This document shows positions 55,327 through 64,000 of a stretch of DNA of 64,000 bases, piece by piece. Every line of letters begins with the position of its first letter. Within the stretch, counting starts at the first letter, position 1. Where the stretch lies: assembly GCF_900182815.1 (NCBI RefSeq), contig NZ_FXUA01000007.1, positions 1 to 64,000 of the forward strand. Direction: 5' to 3'. The stretch comes from Algoriphagus winogradskyi (lineage in GTDB: Bacteria > Bacteroidota > Bacteroidia > Cytophagales > Cyclobacteriaceae). Made by a program: the position numbers and the translations under genes. The notes beneath the pieces were generated by a model. The model saw nothing but the letters and a program-made list of their open reading frames with translations, had not been told where the DNA came from and did not search any database.

Positions 55327-56166
55327 TTAAATTTTCCATCGCTTGTGACTCCAGAGATAAAGATCCGGCTGAAGTCTAATGTTTTCTTCCAACATGTCAC
55401 AGAACTGATCGGTGATCCTGTGTTCGTAGATCTTATCAAATGGTGGCTCAGCTAATTTGATCATTTCGTAGCGATAATGCCCCCTTTTGATTTTGGTCAT
55501 TTTACCATAGACGACGTGGAGGTTCATTTTCTTTGCGAGAAACTCTGCGCCCTCAAAAAAGACAGCAGGTCTATGTAAGAAGTTCCTTTTGTATCTTTTT
55601 TCCGAACTCGGCGGACGCTGATCCGAACCAAGTAATACTATTCTTGGTGATTTTGCTAAGGTAAGCATGGTCCTCCGAAAAGCCTTTTTTTCTGTAACTA
55701 TTCCGCCAAAATGTGTCCGAATAGTATTGATGAGGTTACCAAAGAACCGATTATTGACTTTCAGGTAAACTGTTTCAACGGGTGCCTGAACGGCCTGGTT
55801 GATACCAATTACGCCCATTTCCCAGTTAAATAAGTGACCTGAAACCAGTAAGGCAGATGTGCCGGAATTGACCACTTCATCTAGGTAATGTGTATTGACC
55901 ATCTGAAATCTTTTTTCAAACTCTCGTTCAGAGATTGTCAGCAGTTTGATAGTCTCTGCCAAGGAATCGGTGAAATTACGGTAAAATCGATTTCTGATTT
56001 TAATCCGCTCTTTTTCTGACTTTTCCGCAAAAGCAAATTTCAAATTTTCATCAATTACTTGCTTTCTGTAACGAAGAATAAATCTTGCTACCAAATAAAG
56101 TAAATCAGAGATGAGGTATAGAAAGGAAAGAGGTAAGAAAGAAATTAGCCTTATTACAAAGGTCAT
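55327..56166 (-). CDS. Lipid A-type lauroyl/myristoyl acyltransferase (HtrB/LpxL family), copy 1
   Basis: 279 residues. An N-terminal hydrophobic helix (about residues 5-30) anchors it to the inner membrane. The acyltransferase motif SGHLFNWE carries the conserved HxxxxE. GSDQRPPSSEKRY is the arginine-containing second block. It is paralogous to the gene at 56299, with the same length and the same C-terminus, LQPDLYLWSHKRWK. The two are probably one operon; which acyl positions they modify is unknown. Confidence 0.88.
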   Translation of the reverse strand: MTFVIRLISFLPLSFLYLISDLLYLVARFILRYRKQVIDENLKFAFAEKSEKERIKIRNRFYRNFTDSLAETIKLLTISEREFEKRFQMVNTHYLDEVVNSGTSALLVSGHLFNWEMGVIGINQAVQAPVETVYLKVNNRFFGNLINTIRTHFGGIVTEKKAFRRTMLTLAKSPRIVLLGSDQRPPSSEKRYKRNFLHRPAVFFEGAEFLAKKMNLHVVYGKMTKIKRGHYRYEMIKLAEPPFDKIYEHRITDQFCDMLEENIRLQPDLYLWSHKRWKI

Positions 56167-56298
56167 TTGGGTTTAGGGATATCAAGCTGATGAGTTCTTT
56201 ACAAAGAAAAGGAAATCAACCGATTTCTTCTTCTAAAACTTTGTCAGCATAAGTAATCCATCTGCCTTCAGTTCTTCATAATGAAACTTTGCTGACCA

Positions 56299-57138
56299 TT
56301 ACAATTTCCAGCGCTTATGACTCCACAGATATAGGTCTGGTTGCAAGACGATGTTTTCTTGAAGTCTTCTGCTAAACTCATCTGTTATGCTATGTGGGGC
56401 ATGATCATCATAGGGCGGTTTTGCAAGTTCTGAGAATTCGAAACGGTAATGACCTCGCTTTATTTTGGTCATTTGACCATAGAATACCGGTAGATTCATT
56501 TTTTTTGCAAGTACTTCTCCACCTTCAAAAAACAATGCATTTCGATTCATGAATTTCTTAGTATAGCGACTGTCCGACACGGGAGGTCGCTGATCGGCAG
56601 CGAGATGGACAATTCTTGGGGTGTTTCTCATGGTAATCATGCTGCGCCTGAAGGCCGTTTTCTCGGTCATGATACCTCCGAAATGAGTCCTGATCGCCAA
56701 CATTAGTTTGTTGAAGAAGGGGTTGTTAAGCTTTAAATATACTGTTTCAGCAGTCACTTCGGTATTTAATGCAACTCCTAGAATTGCCATCTCCCAATTA
56801 AAGACATGGCCTGCCATCATGAGGGAGCTTTTACCATTTTTTACTGGTTCATCCACCAAGTGCTGATTAACTACTTGAAATCTTTTCCTAAGCTCTTTTT
56901 CGGAAATCGTCAGCATCTTGAATGTCTCAGCAAAAAAAGCATCGGTAAAATTTCTGTAGAACTTGTTTCGGATCAACTTCCTTTCAGCAGGAGTTTTTTC
57001 AGGAAATGCATAAAGAAGGTTTTCGTCGATGACTTTTTTGCGGTAGGCAATTACATATCGAGCTATTAAGTAAAGGATGTCTGAAAAAATATATAGTACC
57101 GATAAAGGCAATCTGGAGAGGAGTCTAAGTATAAACAT
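56299..57138 (-). CDS. Lipid A-type lauroyl/myristoyl acyltransferase (HtrB/LpxL family), copy 2
   Basis: 279 residues and clearly paralogous to the downstream copy (matching RNKFYRNFTDAFF, AGHVFNWE with HxxxxE, and LQPDLYLWSHKRWK). The N-terminal anchor is longer and more hydrophobic. The two genes are separated by 132 bp. Two divergent copies suggest the organism adds two different acyl chains (as LpxL and LpxM do), or that they act on different lipids. Confidence 0.88.
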   Translation of the reverse strand: MFILRLLSRLPLSVLYIFSDILYLIARYVIAYRKKVIDENLLYAFPEKTPAERKLIRNKFYRNFTDAFFAETFKMLTISEKELRKRFQVVNQHLVDEPVKNGKSSLMMAGHVFNWEMAILGVALNTEVTAETVYLKLNNPFFNKLMLAIRTHFGGIMTEKTAFRRSMITMRNTPRIVHLAADQRPPVSDSRYTKKFMNRNALFFEGGEVLAKKMNLPVFYGQMTKIKRGHYRFEFSELAKPPYDDHAPHSITDEFSRRLQENIVLQPDLYLWSHKRWKL

Positions 57139-58720: not shown

Positions 58721-59287
58721 TTGAAGATCGGTCTATACTTCGGTTCTTTCAATCCCATCCATATCGGTCATCTGATCATCGCAGATACGCTTCACGACCG
58801 CACAGATTTAGATCAGGTTTGGTTTGTGGTGAGTCCGCAGAATCCGCTAAAAAAACGTCAGTCTTTGATTCATGAGTTTGATAGACTGCGAATGGTGGAG
58901 TTGGCGATCGAGGACAATTACCAGTTTCGGGCTTCAGATGTGGAGTTCTCCATGCCCAAGCCTAGCTACACCATAGATACCCTCGCTTACCTGACTGACC
59001 AATACCCACAGCATCAGTTTTGCTTATTTTTAGGTTCGGATAATCTGACTCAGCTGAAGCGCTGGAAGAATTACCAGACCATTCTGGACAACTATGAGAT
59101 CTTCGTCTATCCACGACCAGGCGACGCGATCTCCTTTGAGCATCCGAATATCAAGCTGATCGACGCACCACTTTTAGATATCTCAGCCACCTTTATCCGC
59201 AAGTCTATCTTGGCTGGCAATTCTGTCAAGTACCTCTTACCTGATGGAGTGGCGGATTATATCCGGGATAAGAAGTTGTATTTGTAG
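58721..59287 (+). CDS. nadD: Nicotinate-nucleotide adenylyltransferase
   Basis: Makes deamido-NAD from NaMN and ATP. The nucleotidyltransferase motif GSFNPIHIGH is at residues 8-17, followed by the substrate loop SPQNPLKKRQ and the C-terminal ISATFIRKSI (SxTxxR). It starts with TTG at 58721 since no ATG lies near the N-terminus of the fold. Length 188. It ends the sigma-anti-sigma-gmk-nadD run. Confidence 0.94.
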   Translation: MKIGLYFGSFNPIHIGHLIIADTLHDRTDLDQVWFVVSPQNPLKKRQSLIHEFDRLRMVELAIEDNYQFRASDVEFSMPKPSYTIDTLAYLTDQYPQHQFCLFLGSDNLTQLKRWKNYQTILDNYEIFVYPRPGDAISFEHPNIKLIDAPLLDISATFIRKSILAGNSVKYLLPDGVADYIRDKKLYL

Positions 59288-59356
59288 GGGTAATCATTTG
59301 AATTCAAGCTATTTGCATTTTACATCTAGTTTTACGTTGTGTAAACTATGTATAAG

Positions 59357-59475
59357 TTATTTTCAAACTAATCTTTGCGATCAAAAAAAAAAAAATAGTA
59401 AACTTATACCGAAGTCTTAAGTGAGACCTGATTCCGGCCGGGATTTTTTGAATCAATCTTTAACTATTTTCAATC
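59357..59475 (+). promoter_or_regulatory. Conserved promoter/leader, module 1
   Basis: The block begins TTATTTTCAAACTAATCTTTGCGAT, in which the TAATCTTTG section approximates the Bacteroidota -7 box, then an A13 tract (59383-59395) and a 31-nt core (59399-59429) identical in modules 2 and 3. GTCT-TAAGTG-AGAC can form a small hairpin within the core. The peptide ATG is 47 bp past the core. Confidence 0.6.
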
Positions 59476-59718
59476 ATGAAAAAATTATTATTTGGGATGA
59501 TCCTTTTTGGGGCATTAGTTATTACTAATTCATCATTAGCAGACGATAGAGGGTCAGAAAAAAGGTACTATGGGGAGGTCGAATGTCCAGATGGATCTAT
59601 AATACCTGTTACAGGTAAATGCTGTGAACCGGGAGGCGTTTTTATGTGTAATTATGTATCATGTTCAAATTATACGCCACTTACTCCAATATGTCCATCA
59701 ATAGGAGGTTCAATATGA
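59476..59718 (+). CDS. Short secreted Cys-rich peptide, module 1
   Basis: 80 residues. The signal peptide MKKLLFGMILFGALVI is shared, with small changes, by all three peptides of the array. The mature part has six Cys (VEC, KCC, FMC, VSC, PIC), so up to three disulfides may form after export. The mature sequence is unlike the other two. No known domain is evident. Its stop overlaps the propeller gene's ATG by 4 bp (ATGA) and a strong AGGAGG lies at 59703-59708, so the two products are translationally coupled. Confidence 0.75.
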   Translation: MKKLLFGMILFGALVITNSSLADDRGSEKRYYGEVECPDGSIIPVTGKCCEPGGVFMCNYVSCSNYTPLTPICPSIGGSI

Positions 59719-60845
59719 GATTTTTAATGATTTTCGGATTGGTAATAATTCTAATTTCGTGTCAGAATCGACAAAAAACTCTAGGGGAAATTGAAGTTCC
59801 CCTAGAGCACGAAAAAATACTTACATCAACCATATTTGAAAAACCTTCTATCCTGAGACTCAAGTTTAATGATCGGATATATCCTTCTAAAATTGATCAA
59901 ATTAATTTTTTGGATAATCATATATATGTTTTGGATAAAAATTTTGGTATTATTTTTAAATTTTCAAAAGAAGGTGATCTATTAACAACTTTAGAAAAAC
60001 GAGGAGAAGGACCTGAAGAATATCAGTATTTACATAGGTTTAGAGTTGATACTGAAAATAAAACTATAGAAGTTTATGATAAGGTTGGTCAAAAAATCAT
60101 TATCTATGATTCAAATTTTAAATTTAAAGAATCGATAAAGATCGGTTTGTTTTTTGAGAATTTTGAAAAAATAAGTGATAAAAAGTATCTTATATATTTA
60201 GCTCAAGAAAATATTTTTAATGGTAAAAATGTATCTAATAATTTGATTATTTGGGATAACGGTGAAATCACATTCTCTGATATTTTGCAAAGACCTACTG
60301 ATATAAAATTTCAAGATAATTCTATTTATTTTAATAGGATGAGTAAAAGTATCTATTTTACACAAGCATTTAATGATACTATTTACAAATTTGATGTGAA
60401 TGTAAATAGAATTGTTGAAAAAAGCATAGTTAACTTTCCTAATAAGTTGTTCGGAAGTTTTTCTTCTATTGATGAAATTGATAGGGTTTTTAATGATAAG
60501 ACTTATTCTACTAATATAGATTATTTAGTGTTAAATGATAAAGTGATATCATTTAATTATATCAAGTCAGACAATGGTGCATTATCATTTATGAGGTATT
60601 TTTATTTTCCACACTCAAATTTTGTTTTTCAAGGAACAAGTTTGTACAATGATTTTGATGGGATCTTTTTATTTAGACATATTTATTTTAGGGACAATAT
60701 TTTTACATATGTTGTTTCGCCAGAGTCTTTGTCCAATTTAGATTTAGAAAAAGTAAGTGAAGATCTGAGGGGTTCGATTGATGAATCTATTTCTTTCGAA
60801 GATCAATTTTTACTATTGTCATTCAAAATTAAAGATAATTTGTAG
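59715..60845 (+). CDS. 6-bladed beta-propeller lipoprotein, module 1
   Basis: 376 residues from the ATG at 59715. A lipobox ILISC (Cys at about residue 16) marks a lipoprotein. The body is of repeated beta blades, with the characteristic RGEGPEEYQYLHRF motif found in this Bacteroidota 6-bladed propeller group (often annotated TolB-like or BF3164-like). The gene is strikingly AT-rich compared with genes to its left, with many AAT, ATA and TTT codons. It has no catalytic signature; binding of the adjacent peptide or of another ligand is only an inference. Confidence 0.8.
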   Translation: MRFLMIFGLVIILISCQNRQKTLGEIEVPLEHEKILTSTIFEKPSILRLKFNDRIYPSKIDQINFLDNHIYVLDKNFGIIFKFSKEGDLLTTLEKRGEGPEEYQYLHRFRVDTENKTIEVYDKVGQKIIIYDSNFKFKESIKIGLFFENFEKISDKKYLIYLAQENIFNGKNVSNNLIIWDNGEITFSDILQRPTDIKFQDNSIYFNRMSKSIYFTQAFNDTIYKFDVNVNRIVEKSIVNFPNKLFGSFSSIDEIDRVFNDKTYSTNIDYLVLNDKVISFNYIKSDNGALSFMRYFYFPHSNFVFQGTSLYNDFDGIFLFRHIYFRDNIFTYVVSPESLSNLDLEKVSEDLRGSIDESISFEDQFLLLSFKIKDNL

Positions 60846-60901
60846 TTTAAATTTAAGCTGTTTAAAAAGGGTGATTTTAACGTTGTAAATACAAACATAA
60901 T

Positions 60902-61014
60902 TTTATTTCAACCTAACTCTTGCGATTAAAAAAAAATAGTAAACTTATACCGAAGTCTTAAGTGAGACCTTATTCTTGGCCGAGTTTTTTTAATTAGTTC
61001 AATATTAAAGTTTT
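60902..61014 (+). promoter_or_regulatory. Conserved promoter/leader, module 2
   Basis: Same organisation as module 1: TTTATTTCAACCTAACTCTTGCGATT, an A9 tract (60928-60936), then the identical 31-nt core at 60940-60970. The peptide ATG follows 45 bp later. The last part before the ATG is diverged. Confidence 0.6.
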
Positions 61015-61203
61015 ATGAAAAAGTTATTATTTGGAATGGCCTTCTTTTTTGGGGCTATGATGTTTAGCAGTGTTAGTGTCCAGGCAACGGACCCTGTACC
61101 AAAATGGGTTTGTTGTCAAACTTGGAAAATAAGTGAATGTGTTGATAGATTTGGATGGCCATTTAATGGAACAGAAAAGGTTGAGGCAGATTTTTGTTCT
61201 TAA
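61015..61203 (+). CDS. Short secreted Cys-rich peptide, module 2
   Basis: 62 residues. The start MKKLLFGMAFFFGAMM matches the signal of the other array peptides. The mature part has four Cys (CC, EC, FC) and is shorter than that of module 1. A perfect terminator-like hairpin (61214-61239) lies 10 bp past the stop, before the propeller gene, so the peptide is expected to be made in excess. No domain is recognised. Confidence 0.72.
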   Translation: MKKLLFGMAFFFGAMMFSSVSVQATDPVPKWVCCQTWKISECVDRFGWPFNGTEKVEADFCS

Positions 61204-61213
61204 TCTAATATAT

Positions 61214-61239
61214 AAAAGCTGAGATTCATCTCAGCTTTT
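61214..61239 (+). terminator. Terminator-like hairpin between peptide and propeller, module 2
   Basis: AAAAGCTGAGA (61214-61224) and TCTCAGCTTTT (61229-61239) form an 11-bp stem with a TTCA loop, followed by CTTTAA. The propeller gene starts 27 bp downstream. Partial readthrough would lower propeller expression relative to the peptide. Confidence 0.65.
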
Positions 61240-61265
61240 CTTTAAACCATGCAAATAAATATTTG

Positions 61266-62318
61266 ATGAAAAGAATATTACTTATTATCCTTATTTTGAG
61301 TTCGTGCAGTCCAAGTCCAAGTTCAGACAAACTCGAGAATCAAAATACTTTTGAAGTAGGATCATTTGGACGGAGTGAAAAACTGAAATCCCAAAAGTAC
61401 ACTTATAATGAAATTTTGACTCCCTTTAAAATTTATCTGAAGGGAAAATTTATAATAATTGGTAGCCAATCGGATAAGCGACTAATGCATCTACTTGATA
61501 AATCTACATTAGGATATGTGACTGGAAAAGGAGTAAAAGGAGAGGGGCCTGGAGAATTTGTAAATGTTAGGGGAATAGATTCAGGTTTTAATGACAGCAC
61601 TATTTGGGCATATTCAAATATGGGTAAAGCATTTTATGAGTTCACCTTATATGATACATTATCACTGGCTAAATCAGTAGTTGTTCAAAATCAGAAGTGG
61701 TTTCAGGCTATGTCTATGAACTGGAAACAATCAGGCGAAATTATTTCTTATATGAATTTTGGCCCTTCTAAGTTAAAAGTTTTTGATATTCAGGGAAATA
61801 CGATAGATAGCGCTGGTCTTTGGGTGACAAATAAAGAGTTGTCTGAGGATGCTAATTTTATATTGAGCGATTTGCATCAAGGAGCAAAGTATTACAATAA
61901 AGATAATCAGGTCTATGTTTTATCGAAGTTGAAATTTGACCAATTCGAAATATTTAATTTTAACAATAAAAAGCATATTGAAGTTAATGGACCTTTTAAT
62001 GAGGATACTAAATATGATGTTGGAAATGATGGTGATGTTAAATTCGCGGTTCTTGATGAAAACACTAAATATGGATATAGTGACGTCTGTGTGACGAAGA
62101 ACTTCATCTTCCTTGTTTTTATTGGAAAAACTTTAGCTGAAGGTAGAGCTCTCGGTGAAACTTCACGGGATATATTTCAGTTTGATTTGGCGGGAAGGCC
62201 TATAGCGCACTTCCAGACTGATGTGCCAATTATATCTATTGCTGTGGATGAAGAGGAATCAAAAATCTACGCGTTAACAGAAGATCAAAATCCAGGTATT
62301 GCAGTTTTTAAATATTAG
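61266..62318 (+). CDS. 6-bladed beta-propeller lipoprotein, module 2
   Basis: 350 residues from the ATG at 61266. The lipobox is ILSSC (Cys at about residue 14). The blade motif VKGEGPGEFVNVRGIDSG is the equivalent of those in the other modules. The protein is a soluble propeller with no transmembrane segment after the signal. It follows its peptide gene, the only other gene in the module, and precedes the leader of module 3. Confidence 0.8.
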   Translation: MKRILLIILILSSCSPSPSSDKLENQNTFEVGSFGRSEKLKSQKYTYNEILTPFKIYLKGKFIIIGSQSDKRLMHLLDKSTLGYVTGKGVKGEGPGEFVNVRGIDSGFNDSTIWAYSNMGKAFYEFTLYDTLSLAKSVVVQNQKWFQAMSMNWKQSGEIISYMNFGPSKLKVFDIQGNTIDSAGLWVTNKELSEDANFILSDLHQGAKYYNKDNQVYVLSKLKFDQFEIFNFNNKKHIEVNGPFNEDTKYDVGNDGDVKFAVLDENTKYGYSDVCVTKNFIFLVFIGKTLAEGRALGETSRDIFQFDLAGRPIAHFQTDVPIISIAVDEEESKIYALTEDQNPGIAVFKY

Positions 62319-62397
62319 GGTATGTGAGTTTTTTTTGCCTTCATGAAGCAGTGTCAGAATATATCTAGGAAAGAAGTTGTTTAAGAAAGCAGTCTCA

Positions 62398-62415
62398 GTT
62401 ATGCAGCTGCATAAC
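62398..62415. promoter_or_regulatory. 18-bp perfect palindrome upstream of module 3
   Basis: GTTATGCAGCTGCATAAC is its own reverse complement. It lies about 70 bp upstream of the module 3 leader, in the gap after propeller 2. It could be a regulator site; nothing equivalent was noticed before modules 1 and 2. Confidence 0.35.
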
Positions 62416-62484
62416 AGATGAAGTAACTTTCATTGTAAAAAATGAGGTTAATACACAGGTATTTGCTGTGTAAATAAGTTTCTA

Positions 62485-62595
62485 GTTATTTTCAAACTAA
62501 TCCTTGCGATTAAAAAAATAATAAACTTATACCGAAGTCTTAAGTGAGACCTGATTCCTGCCGTGATTTTTTAAACAATTTAATTATTCAATTTT
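62485..62595 (+). promoter_or_regulatory. Conserved promoter/leader, module 3
   Basis: GTTATTTTCAAACTAATCC, then TTGCGATT, an A7 tract (62512-62518), then the identical 31-nt core at 62522-62552. The peptide ATG follows 44 bp later. It is the closest in sequence to module 1. Confidence 0.6.
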
Positions 62596-62805
62596 ATGAA
62601 AAAGTTATTATTTGGAATGGCCTTTATTGGGGCTATGATGAGCACAGGAGTATCTTTCCACGCTAAAGCAGACGTTCCTGTAAAACCTTGCTATCAATGA
62701 ATGTATTGGTGCTCTGGGGAAGTTGTAGTCTATAACTGTGAAAACTATCAAACTGGGCATTTATGCTCTGCAGCTTATGAAGCATGCTATAAGTGTTCTC
62801 TATAA
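62596..62805 (+). pseudogene. Short Cys-rich peptide gene with an in-frame TGA, module 3
   Basis: The start MKKLLFGMAFIGAMM is the array signal. After 34 codons an in-frame TGA (62698-62700) follows PCYQ. The same frame then continues for 34 more codons (starting MYWCSGEVVVYNCEN) to a TAA, and the continuation holds five more Cys. The complete frame would have a length and Cys spacing like modules 1 and 2. Either a nonsense mutation, readthrough, or translation restart at the following ATG could apply. Confidence 0.65.
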
Positions 62806-62811
62806 ATAGGT

Positions 62812-62848
62812 GATAATTAGCGGCTCGTTTGCCTCTAATTGTTATATT
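62812..62848 (+). terminator. Terminator-like hairpin between peptide and propeller, module 3
   Basis: AATTAG-c-GGC (62815-62824) and GCC-t-CTAATT (62831-62840) form a stem with one mismatch, followed by GTTATATTG and a T-rich run. It is in the same place as the module 2 hairpin; the stem and sequence differ. Confidence 0.5.
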
Positions 62849-62876
62849 GTTTTTTTTGAGTTAAAAAACTGATTAT

Positions 62877-63986
62877 ATGTACTTTCGCTTATCCCTGATT
62901 TTTATTTTAATAACCTTTTTTTCCTGCAAAACTAATTCTGAAAAAGTTTCTGACGAAAGTATTCTTCACGTTGAACTTGAGGAATCAGAACTAATGAACA
63001 TAGAAAAGTTTGAAATTCTGGAACTCATCCCATTAGAAACCAATCAATTTAACTTGATGGGGCTCGATTTGAGGGTGCGCCAAAATGAAGAGAGTTATTA
63101 TGTGATGGACATTGGGACAAGAGATGCAGTGCATCAATTTTCTTCTGATGGGAAATATCTAGGTGCCGCAGCCTCGATAGGTGAAGGGCCAGGTCAACTG
63201 CTGGGTTTGCAGGATTTTCAAATTGATAATGAAGGCAACCTGCTGGTTTTGTCTTCATTGGGCGATAAGTCCACTATCATTAAAATTGAAGACGCCGCTG
63301 AGCTCACTACAGTTTTTGAAACCGATTATTTGGCAGGATCATTTACCATTCCATCTTCTGGTAATTTTCTTTTGGCTGGTGGATATAACCTCCCAATTGT
63401 AGCTGACCGGGTTGTTTTGACAGATTCAATTGGGATCATTCAATCTACTTTTTTGCCTAATGATTATGAGAATGAAATGCTACCAATGGGGGAGCGAAAT
63501 TTCTATGAATCAGGTGAAAACCTGCTCTATTCCGAAATTTTCAACAACCGAGTTTATGAATATTCTGAGGCAGGATTAATGCCTATTTTGGAAATTGATA
63601 TGGGAAAGTATTCACTTCCAGATAACTTTTGGGATGTAGATCTCATGGTAGGATTTAGTCGACTACAGGAAAACGGATTTGCAACGATAAAATCAGTCTT
63701 TGAAGATGATAGCAATTACTTGGTTAACATCCATATTCAAAGTAAGGCAGGTTCTTTCAAGAAATTACTTCTCATCAATAAGGAGACTGGGGATTCAAAC
63801 TATTGGGATGGCACATCCTCTGAAGAAGAGGTGTACAGTGACCCTATTGCAATGGAAAATGGAGAAATTACGTTTTTGACCTATCACTCGGTATTGAAAA
63901 AGAAATTGGAAGGGGATTTACCACCTAACCTCCAAGAAATGAACTATGACTATCCAATATTACTCACAACTAAGATTAATGATTAA
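62877..63986 (+). CDS. 6-bladed beta-propeller lipoprotein, module 3
   Basis: 369 residues. The lipobox is TFFSC (Cys at about residue 17). The blade motif SIGEGPGQLLGLQDFQID matches the equivalents in the other two modules, and the codon use is less AT-rich than that of propeller 1. The gene ends 14 bp before the window edge; whether another module follows cannot be seen. Confidence 0.8.
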   Translation: MYFRLSLIFILITFFSCKTNSEKVSDESILHVELEESELMNIEKFEILELIPLETNQFNLMGLDLRVRQNEESYYVMDIGTRDAVHQFSSDGKYLGAAASIGEGPGQLLGLQDFQIDNEGNLLVLSSLGDKSTIIKIEDAAELTTVFETDYLAGSFTIPSSGNFLLAGGYNLPIVADRVVLTDSIGIIQSTFLPNDYENEMLPMGERNFYESGENLLYSEIFNNRVYEYSEAGLMPILEIDMGKYSLPDNFWDVDLMVGFSRLQENGFATIKSVFEDDSNYLVNIHIQSKAGSFKKLLLINKETGDSNYWDGTSSEEEVYSDPIAMENGEITFLTYHSVLKKKLEGDLPPNLQEMNYDYPILLTTKIND

Positions 63987-64000
63987 AAGAAAAAGTTATC

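Follow-up and report, generated by a model that had tools for sequence, protein, structure and literature searches.

The window examined here, a 64,000-nucleotide stretch of the Algoriphagus winogradskyi genome (contig NZ_FXUA01000007.1, positions 1 to 64,000), carries three head-to-tail cassettes spanning 59361-63986, each comprising a leader of ~90 nucleotides (nt), a gene for a short Cys-containing peptide with a signal peptide, and a gene for a β-propeller lipoprotein. A first-pass annotation of the sequence had described these modules, an identical 31-nt core in all three leaders, near-identical MKKLLFGM signal peptides followed by unalike mature parts, and a blade motif in the lipoproteins (GEGPEEY, GEGPGEF and GEGPGQL), and each of these features is present in the window. 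Our analysis concerns the pairing of peptide and propeller, which in Algoriphagus and beyond appear as matched types. In common the leaders have a TTTCAA.CTAA...TTGCGAT block, an A-tract, the 31-nt core and a terminator-like hairpin whose T-run lies a few tens of nt before the ATG of the peptide gene.

All features of the array lie on the plus strand. Its upstream border is nadD, an open reading frame (ORF) at 58721..59287. Leader 1 (59361..59454) contains the TTTCAAACTAAT..TTGCGAT block, an A-tract of 13, the invariant core and the hairpin with its T-run. Peptide 1 (59476..59718; 80 amino acids) combines a signal peptide with a six-Cys mature part of type G, and its stop codon overlaps the start codon of propeller lipoprotein 1 (59715..60845; PF17170) at 59715-59718. 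Leader 2 (60906..60995; A-tract of 9) precedes peptide 2 (61015..61203; 62 amino acids), the four-Cys mature part of which is of type B and contains WVCCQ, and propeller lipoprotein 2 (61266..62318), a type B member of PF15869 (TolB_like). Leader 3 (62490..62577; A-tract of 7) precedes the type A peptide 3 (62596..62805) and the type A propeller lipoprotein 3 (62877..63986; PF17170). Cysteine counts of six, four and six had been proposed for the peptides, and those of peptides 1 and 2 stand, but peptide 3 as encoded has only 34 amino acids and one Cys before an in-frame TGA at 62698-62700, so that its six cysteines require read-through. Orthologues of peptide 3 are intact in A. locisalis and in genome G300, and the reading frame of propeller 3 is open despite its broken peptide. 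The last module has a third gene, for a 177-residue lipoprotein that is thioredoxin-like by eye; it starts within the window (63979..64000) and continues beyond it to about 64512. Such genes belong to type A cassettes, which thus contain three genes: the two clusters of such lipoproteins comprise 14 ORFs, and every one of them comes after a type A propeller or what remains of one.

Against the curated Pfam cut-offs of 22.9, 29.2 and 22.9 bits, propellers 1, 2 and 3 score 89.1, 89.1 and 79.2 bits. Since propellers 1 and 3 belong to PF17170 (DUF5128) and propeller 2 to PF15869, they are not recent copies of each other; a recent tandem triplication of whole modules is likewise ruled out by payloads that are unrelated or distant. 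Propellers 2 and 3 were modeled with AlphaFold (AF2) at modest confidence (mean predicted local distance difference test score, pLDDT, 63 and predicted template modeling score, pTM, 0.71 for propeller 2; pLDDT 70 and pTM 0.73 for propeller 3). With Foldseek, the best matches of the former are NHL propellers (1q7f, template modeling (TM) score 0.60/0.73), and the best match of the latter is 4raa (BF0058, TM 0.71/0.73), a solved relative from Bacteroides fragilis described in its title only as a putative exported protein. Based on these best PDB matches, with blades not individually counted, both proteins are predicted to adopt a six-bladed propeller fold. By inspection, the lipoproteins of the window have a signal stretch and a Cys, suggesting putative lipidation and display at the envelope. 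In a cassette of genome G326 (L096), the partner is a DUF4221 protein rather than a member of PF17170 or PF15869 and has its own peptide type; DUF4221 also has a solved relative, 3s9j (BVU_1028). Whereas the PF17170, PF15869 and PDB titles give neither a function nor a partner peptide, the propellers of the window are tied to a typed peptide. An iron-dependent stimulon table for B. thetaiotaomicron lists the "6-Bladed beta-propeller" gene BT0664, and the passage names no peptide (PMC10434189).

Peptides were sought across the genus with 22 query peptides, so that unlike peptides could be missed, and cassette units were tabulated for 29 genomes; 12 loci whose fetched stretch contains no glucoamylase gene, several of which carry the leader, and the contig-edge unit G324 B were left out of the table. 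Fifty of the 51 peptide matches lie upstream of a tabulated propeller, the other being a broken remnant without a propeller in G311. Clustering of the propellers of the genus yields six types (C, A, E, B, F and D) and singletons, and peptide type equals propeller type for all 50 upstream peptides, whereas 10,000 shuffles gave 8.8 matches on average and never more than 20. The queries themselves account for 22 of the 50, and the remaining 28 match as well. A broken type A peptide in G329 that is counted among the 50 has lost most of its own propeller to deletion, and the next tabulated propeller is 1.2 kb away. The count includes two singleton propellers placed by hand, G283 A2 in type A (best match excluding itself, 161 bits; next, 57) and G334 B in type B (214 bits; next, 102). 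Sequence matches and Pfam agree on both placements, and under strict clustering, with these two outside the types, 48 of 50 match. Peptides clustered independently of the propellers gave an adjusted Rand index of 0.97 with the propeller types (G334 B counted as B). Mature peptides thus fall into discrete types, and except for peptide 1, whose type G occurs in the window only, those of the window are conserved types common to several species, which rules out the hypervariable mature region that had been suggested. Judged by genomic type, peptide and propeller appear to pair one-to-one. The proposal that the two co-occur and co-vary is therefore borne out in the genus, and because they do so by type, a cognate pair is supported and binding of each propeller to its own peptide becomes plausible.

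The pairing is found outside the genus as well. Of 40 genomes from other genera of the family, 9 encode PF15869 members and 20 encode PF17170 members. Upstream of the propeller, a short ORF with a signal sequence and three or more Cys is present at 15 of 60 loci in these genomes (some of which overlap each other) and at 3 of 9 further PF17170 loci outside the array in the window's own genome, in total 18 of 69 loci versus 2 of 69 on the antisense strand and 0.4% of shuffles. Type C peptides accompany propellers that score highest against type C at L131, L134, L137, L140 and L143, and type B peptides accompany type B propellers at L133 and L145, so that pairings of types B and C recur in other genera. 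Four of these seven pairs have unrelated leaders: the signal leader of the type C peptide is ordinary-looking at L131 but is of two unrelated kinds at L134/L143 and L137/L140. An early peptide stop lies beside an open propeller at L133 (G021, type B) and at L143 (G043, type C), where a later start is possible. These two kinds of long peptide leader have TLIELGNKA-like ends (L127, L134, L143 and L158) and KEVALEKAIAG-like ends (L137, L140, L144 and L148). In the window's genome, Cys-rich secreted-type peptides stand before PF17170 propellers without the core leader at L046, L048 and L051, and the L046 peptide type is also found at L167 and L185, in other genera.

Matching of types could in principle reflect descent rather than interaction, with linked genes traveling together through a neutral hotspot. 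Adjacent genes do co-inherit, and the repeated nadD 3' and leader sequences described below offer a recombination route; however, pairs of types B and C are retained across genera, in several cases under a changed leader, unpaired loss is one-sided, and every listed comparison yielding a value gave a ratio of nonsynonymous to synonymous substitution rates (dN/dS) below 0.5. We consider a purely neutral origin quite improbable.

The leader core has a much narrower distribution than the pairs. A 29-nt part of it occurs at exactly three sites in the window's genome at up to three mismatches (none for the reversed control), and an exact 20-nt core was found in five stretches of the genome collection, all from Algoriphagus (A. 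yeomjeoni, A. locisalis with two stretches, A. antarcticus and A. aquimarinus). At up to three mismatches, a 26-nt core is present in 3 of 295 genomes of the family, all three Algoriphagus and none among the 278 of other genera, and in 8 of 72 genomes of the genus, at 18 sites of which 13 are exact. A sequence-only leader model applied to the 72 genomes retrieved more diverged leaders, for example in G308, G335, G304, G311, G324 and G334; because those of G311, G324 and G334 keep the flanks but differ in the core, the core is lineage-specific. The expectation of a conserved core accompanying these modules thus fails, the core being limited to part of one genus and cassettes with other leaders being common. 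Among 18 copies of the otherwise near-invariant leader (window 59361-62577; L025-L028, L041-L043), the A-tract varies from 7 to 14 nt, which might possibly act as an expression switch through promoter phase variation. In G301 (L042, 9218-9308, minus strand), a ~170-nt insertion with terminal inverted repeats AACCCACACC/GGTGTGGGTT splits the core from the second hairpin.

Comparison of 39 intact units from 23 genomes, using nucleotide identity for leader and signal and amino-acid identity for mature peptide and propeller, located the boundary of the exchanged unit (the hand-re-marked G293 B, G293 F and G329 A rows, discussed below, were excluded by the peptide-start filter). Units of different type in the same genome (23 pairs) have mean identities of 84% in the leader, 79% in the signal, 23% in the mature peptide and 23% in the propeller, whereas units of the same type in different genomes (116 pairs) have 65%, 75%, 56% and 56% (Mann-Whitney p of 2e-8, 0.25, 1e-13 and 4e-14, respectively, for pairs that are not independent). 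Leaders are thus more alike within a genome, while mature peptide and propeller move as one; because identity drops at the signal/mature junction, these two constitute the exchanged unit.

The cassettes are stacked at a single chromosomal site. nadD was found in 71 of 72 genomes of the genus and its site was fetched in 48, in 32 of which the gap is delimited by a glucoamylase-like gene, which we take to be GH15. Six of these gaps are empty, at 86-158 bp, whereas the remaining 26 exceed that size and reach 12.8 kb, one of them (G322) with remnants only; the gap of A. locisalis holds seven propellers. Read by eye, the six empty sites have no such leader, which rules out that the leader is the native terminator of nadD. 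In 13 of the 48 loci, cassettes are separated or followed by fragments of the nadD 3' end, which begin at various codons of the gene and usually extend to codon 187 or 188; none was found in the window's own interval. When 15 loci were compared with their own nadD-proximal stretch, at least eight had matches that begin in the nadD 3' end or the leader and extend into the codons of the signal peptide, a comparison that cannot show where homology ends because the query stopped about 250 nt past nadD. Payloads would accordingly be exchanged at the nadD-glucoamylase gap by homologous recombination via the shared nadD 3' end, leader and signal peptide, and the hotspot may illustrate a route for exchanging small payloads at a signal-peptide boundary.

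Loss within the cassettes is lopsided. The 60 units comprise 40 with both genes intact, seven with an intact propeller and a broken peptide, nine with an intact propeller and no peptide, two with an intact peptide and a broken propeller, one with both broken, and one with a broken propeller and no peptide. Propeller-only units therefore outnumber peptide-only units 16 to 2, although the peptide makes up only ~16% of the coding target (binomial p of 2e-11 against the 16% share and 7e-4 against one half, both too small owing to relatedness); counting only in-situ lesions, the ratio is 7 to 2. For G293 B, G293 F and G329 A, inspection of the DNA led us to change the entry by hand from intact to broken, in G293 F by inference from loss of the start codon, and for the nine absent peptides the upstream DNA was read by eye (in G339 in part, with the ORF list). 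G293 (L103) keeps all four of its propellers open, yet each of its four peptides is missing or damaged in a different way. Four peptide-less type C propellers from four species gave dN/dS of 0.077-0.096 in all six comparisons, at synonymous divergence (dS) above 1.1, which looks saturated; these orphan propellers are under purifying selection.

Orphans of this kind would also be expected if the propeller had its own envelope function, such as binding of a ligand, glycan or protein, and the peptide were a dispensable ligand, inhibitor or assembly partner. Orphan propellers remain open and some are under purifying selection, the upstream peptide is present at only three of the nine extra PF17170 loci of the window's genome, and 45 of the 60 propeller loci in other genera had no upstream peptide in the scan. 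By itself, such a function leaves unexplained the locking of types between genera under changed leaders, the growth of arrays and the repeated single-lesion losses of peptides, and we regard this reading as rather unlikely. Alternatively, the propeller may sense a cognate exported peptide in peptide-receptor signaling or kin recognition, with peptide-less strains as listeners. Such signaling would be consistent with the locking of types, the structured leader and the orphan propellers, and the N-terminus of peptide 1 weakly matches the Phr model of secreted pheromones (E 0.016; 15.7 versus 25 bits). The Phr match, however, covers only residues 1-20, in the signal region, and being below the cut-off was set aside as an identification; no transducer gene was noticed in the intervals read by eye, and orphans conserved over dS above 1 would require a long-lasting foreign signal. 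Signaling seems to us rather unlikely.

We tentatively favor cognate peptide/propeller pairs that most likely serve antagonism between strains, with the propeller conferring immunity. A peptide with its protector is preferred because one-sided loss fits a costly peptide and a partner worth keeping. In the mechanism that we infer, from export and binding through toxicity, immunity and attenuation to the recombination route, the payload would be a two-gene pair encoding a peptide that carries an export signal and several cysteines and, with it, a six-bladed propeller lipoprotein recognizing that peptide type. The peptide would act on neighboring, related strains that lack the matching type of propeller. 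Located at the cell envelope, the propeller would capture or neutralize the peptide, providing self-immunity or, as an orphan, immunity to neighbors. The leader RNA probably forms two hairpins, of which the second resembles an intrinsic terminator, and expression may accordingly depend on regulated read-through.

Several observations weigh against antagonism. The 16:2 ratio overstates the number of independent events because the units are related; six of the 16 propeller-only units are of type C, five of them without a trace of a peptide, and these five may perhaps reflect one old loss. Three of the seven broken-peptide calls were made by hand. dN/dS is rough at dS above 1, and several close pairs of peptide-associated propellers have higher values of 0.25-0.43 at low dS. 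Intact peptides stand beside broken propellers in G298 (a type D frameshift) and G309 (a type F nonsense mutation), and neither genome yielded another close propeller match when searched; under a strict toxin-immunity rule, such a state could occur only if recent or through a sequencing error. To our knowledge, propellers are not known as immunity proteins. The retained orphans are also compatible with an independent function of the propeller, and the matching of types with linkage by descent.

Evidence on leader folding is also divided. A two-hairpin model fits 36 sites in other Algoriphagus lineages at E below 1e-6 and was built from 33 sites of this kind. These leaders have a covariation score of 0.278 versus 0.219 when shuffled, and the score, the paired cells and the double-change cells exceed all 500 shuffles and every slid version, a result favored by the alignment having been fitted to the model. 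The core-group leaders can form the same two hairpins, with 96% of cells paired. Counting against the proposed leader structure, two of the five measures in the other-lineage test do not exceed shuffles, and covariation in the core-group leaders is not above shuffles, so that none is demonstrable within the invariant core. Furthermore, when six leaders were folded singly, none did significantly better than shuffled sequence, some of the stretches having ended before the T-run, and a terminator scan of the window flags no terminator in the leaders. No Rfam family reached its gathering score in 59250-64000, where five matches at E up to 5 all fall far below it and none lies in a leader, so the leader is not assigned to a known structured RNA. 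A terminator-like leader is likely for the genus and unproven for the leaders of the window.

The analogy that had been drawn is NVEALA (PF14055) of Bacteroides, which presumably comprises short exported peptides beside propeller genes. It holds as an analogy but not as a model match: the NVEALA model, which we assume to be present in the searched libraries, matched neither peptides 1 and 2 of the window (E up to 1) nor seven peptides of relatives (E up to 10). The KEVALEKAIAG-like leader end of some peptides in other genera resembles the name-giving motif by eye, whereas the Algoriphagus leader resembles an ordinary signal peptide. Polymorphic toxin-immunity loci offer a second, more general pattern for comparison. 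Such loci, and bacteriocin-immunity loci with them, resemble the cassettes in general outline through a conserved delivery part, exchangeable payload, cognate partner and orphan partners. In the literature on such loci (PMC3482391, PMC6671954), bacteroidetocins are described as class IIa-related peptides. The present cassettes differ in having a small Cys-rich peptide without a delivery domain, a propeller lipoprotein as partner and a toxicity that is putative. Open-access literature searches returned no title on these peptide-propeller pairs. It is possible, if somewhat doubtful, that they represent a novel polymorphic system of Bacteroidota for antagonism or recognition, in which type-matched propellers neutralize exported Cys-rich peptides, payloads are interchangeable behind a common attenuator-like leader and signal peptide at the nadD hotspot, and orphan propellers act as acquired immunity against neighbors. 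PF17170 and PF15869, which have no Pfam-assigned function, gain a concrete typed partner, and the pairing predicts exclusive binding, every propeller type recognizing the peptide of its own type alone. If antagonism is true, the pairs would amount to a form of bacteriocin-immunity system in which a propeller provides the immunity, and past conflicts could be read from the orphan propellers.

Neither a plasmid nor a viral home was supported for the array: propeller 2 had no match in the plasmid collection and peptide 1 no relative in the viral contigs. Pairs of adjacent genes also stand on either side of the array. Upstream, on the minus strand at 55327-57138, are two genes of similar sequence for proteins of 279 amino acids each, which we take to resemble lipid acyltransferases, and downstream (L004:13451-20000) are two adjacent genes encoding proteins of about 1,090-1,100 residues with what we presume to be FG-GAP/VCBS-like repeats.

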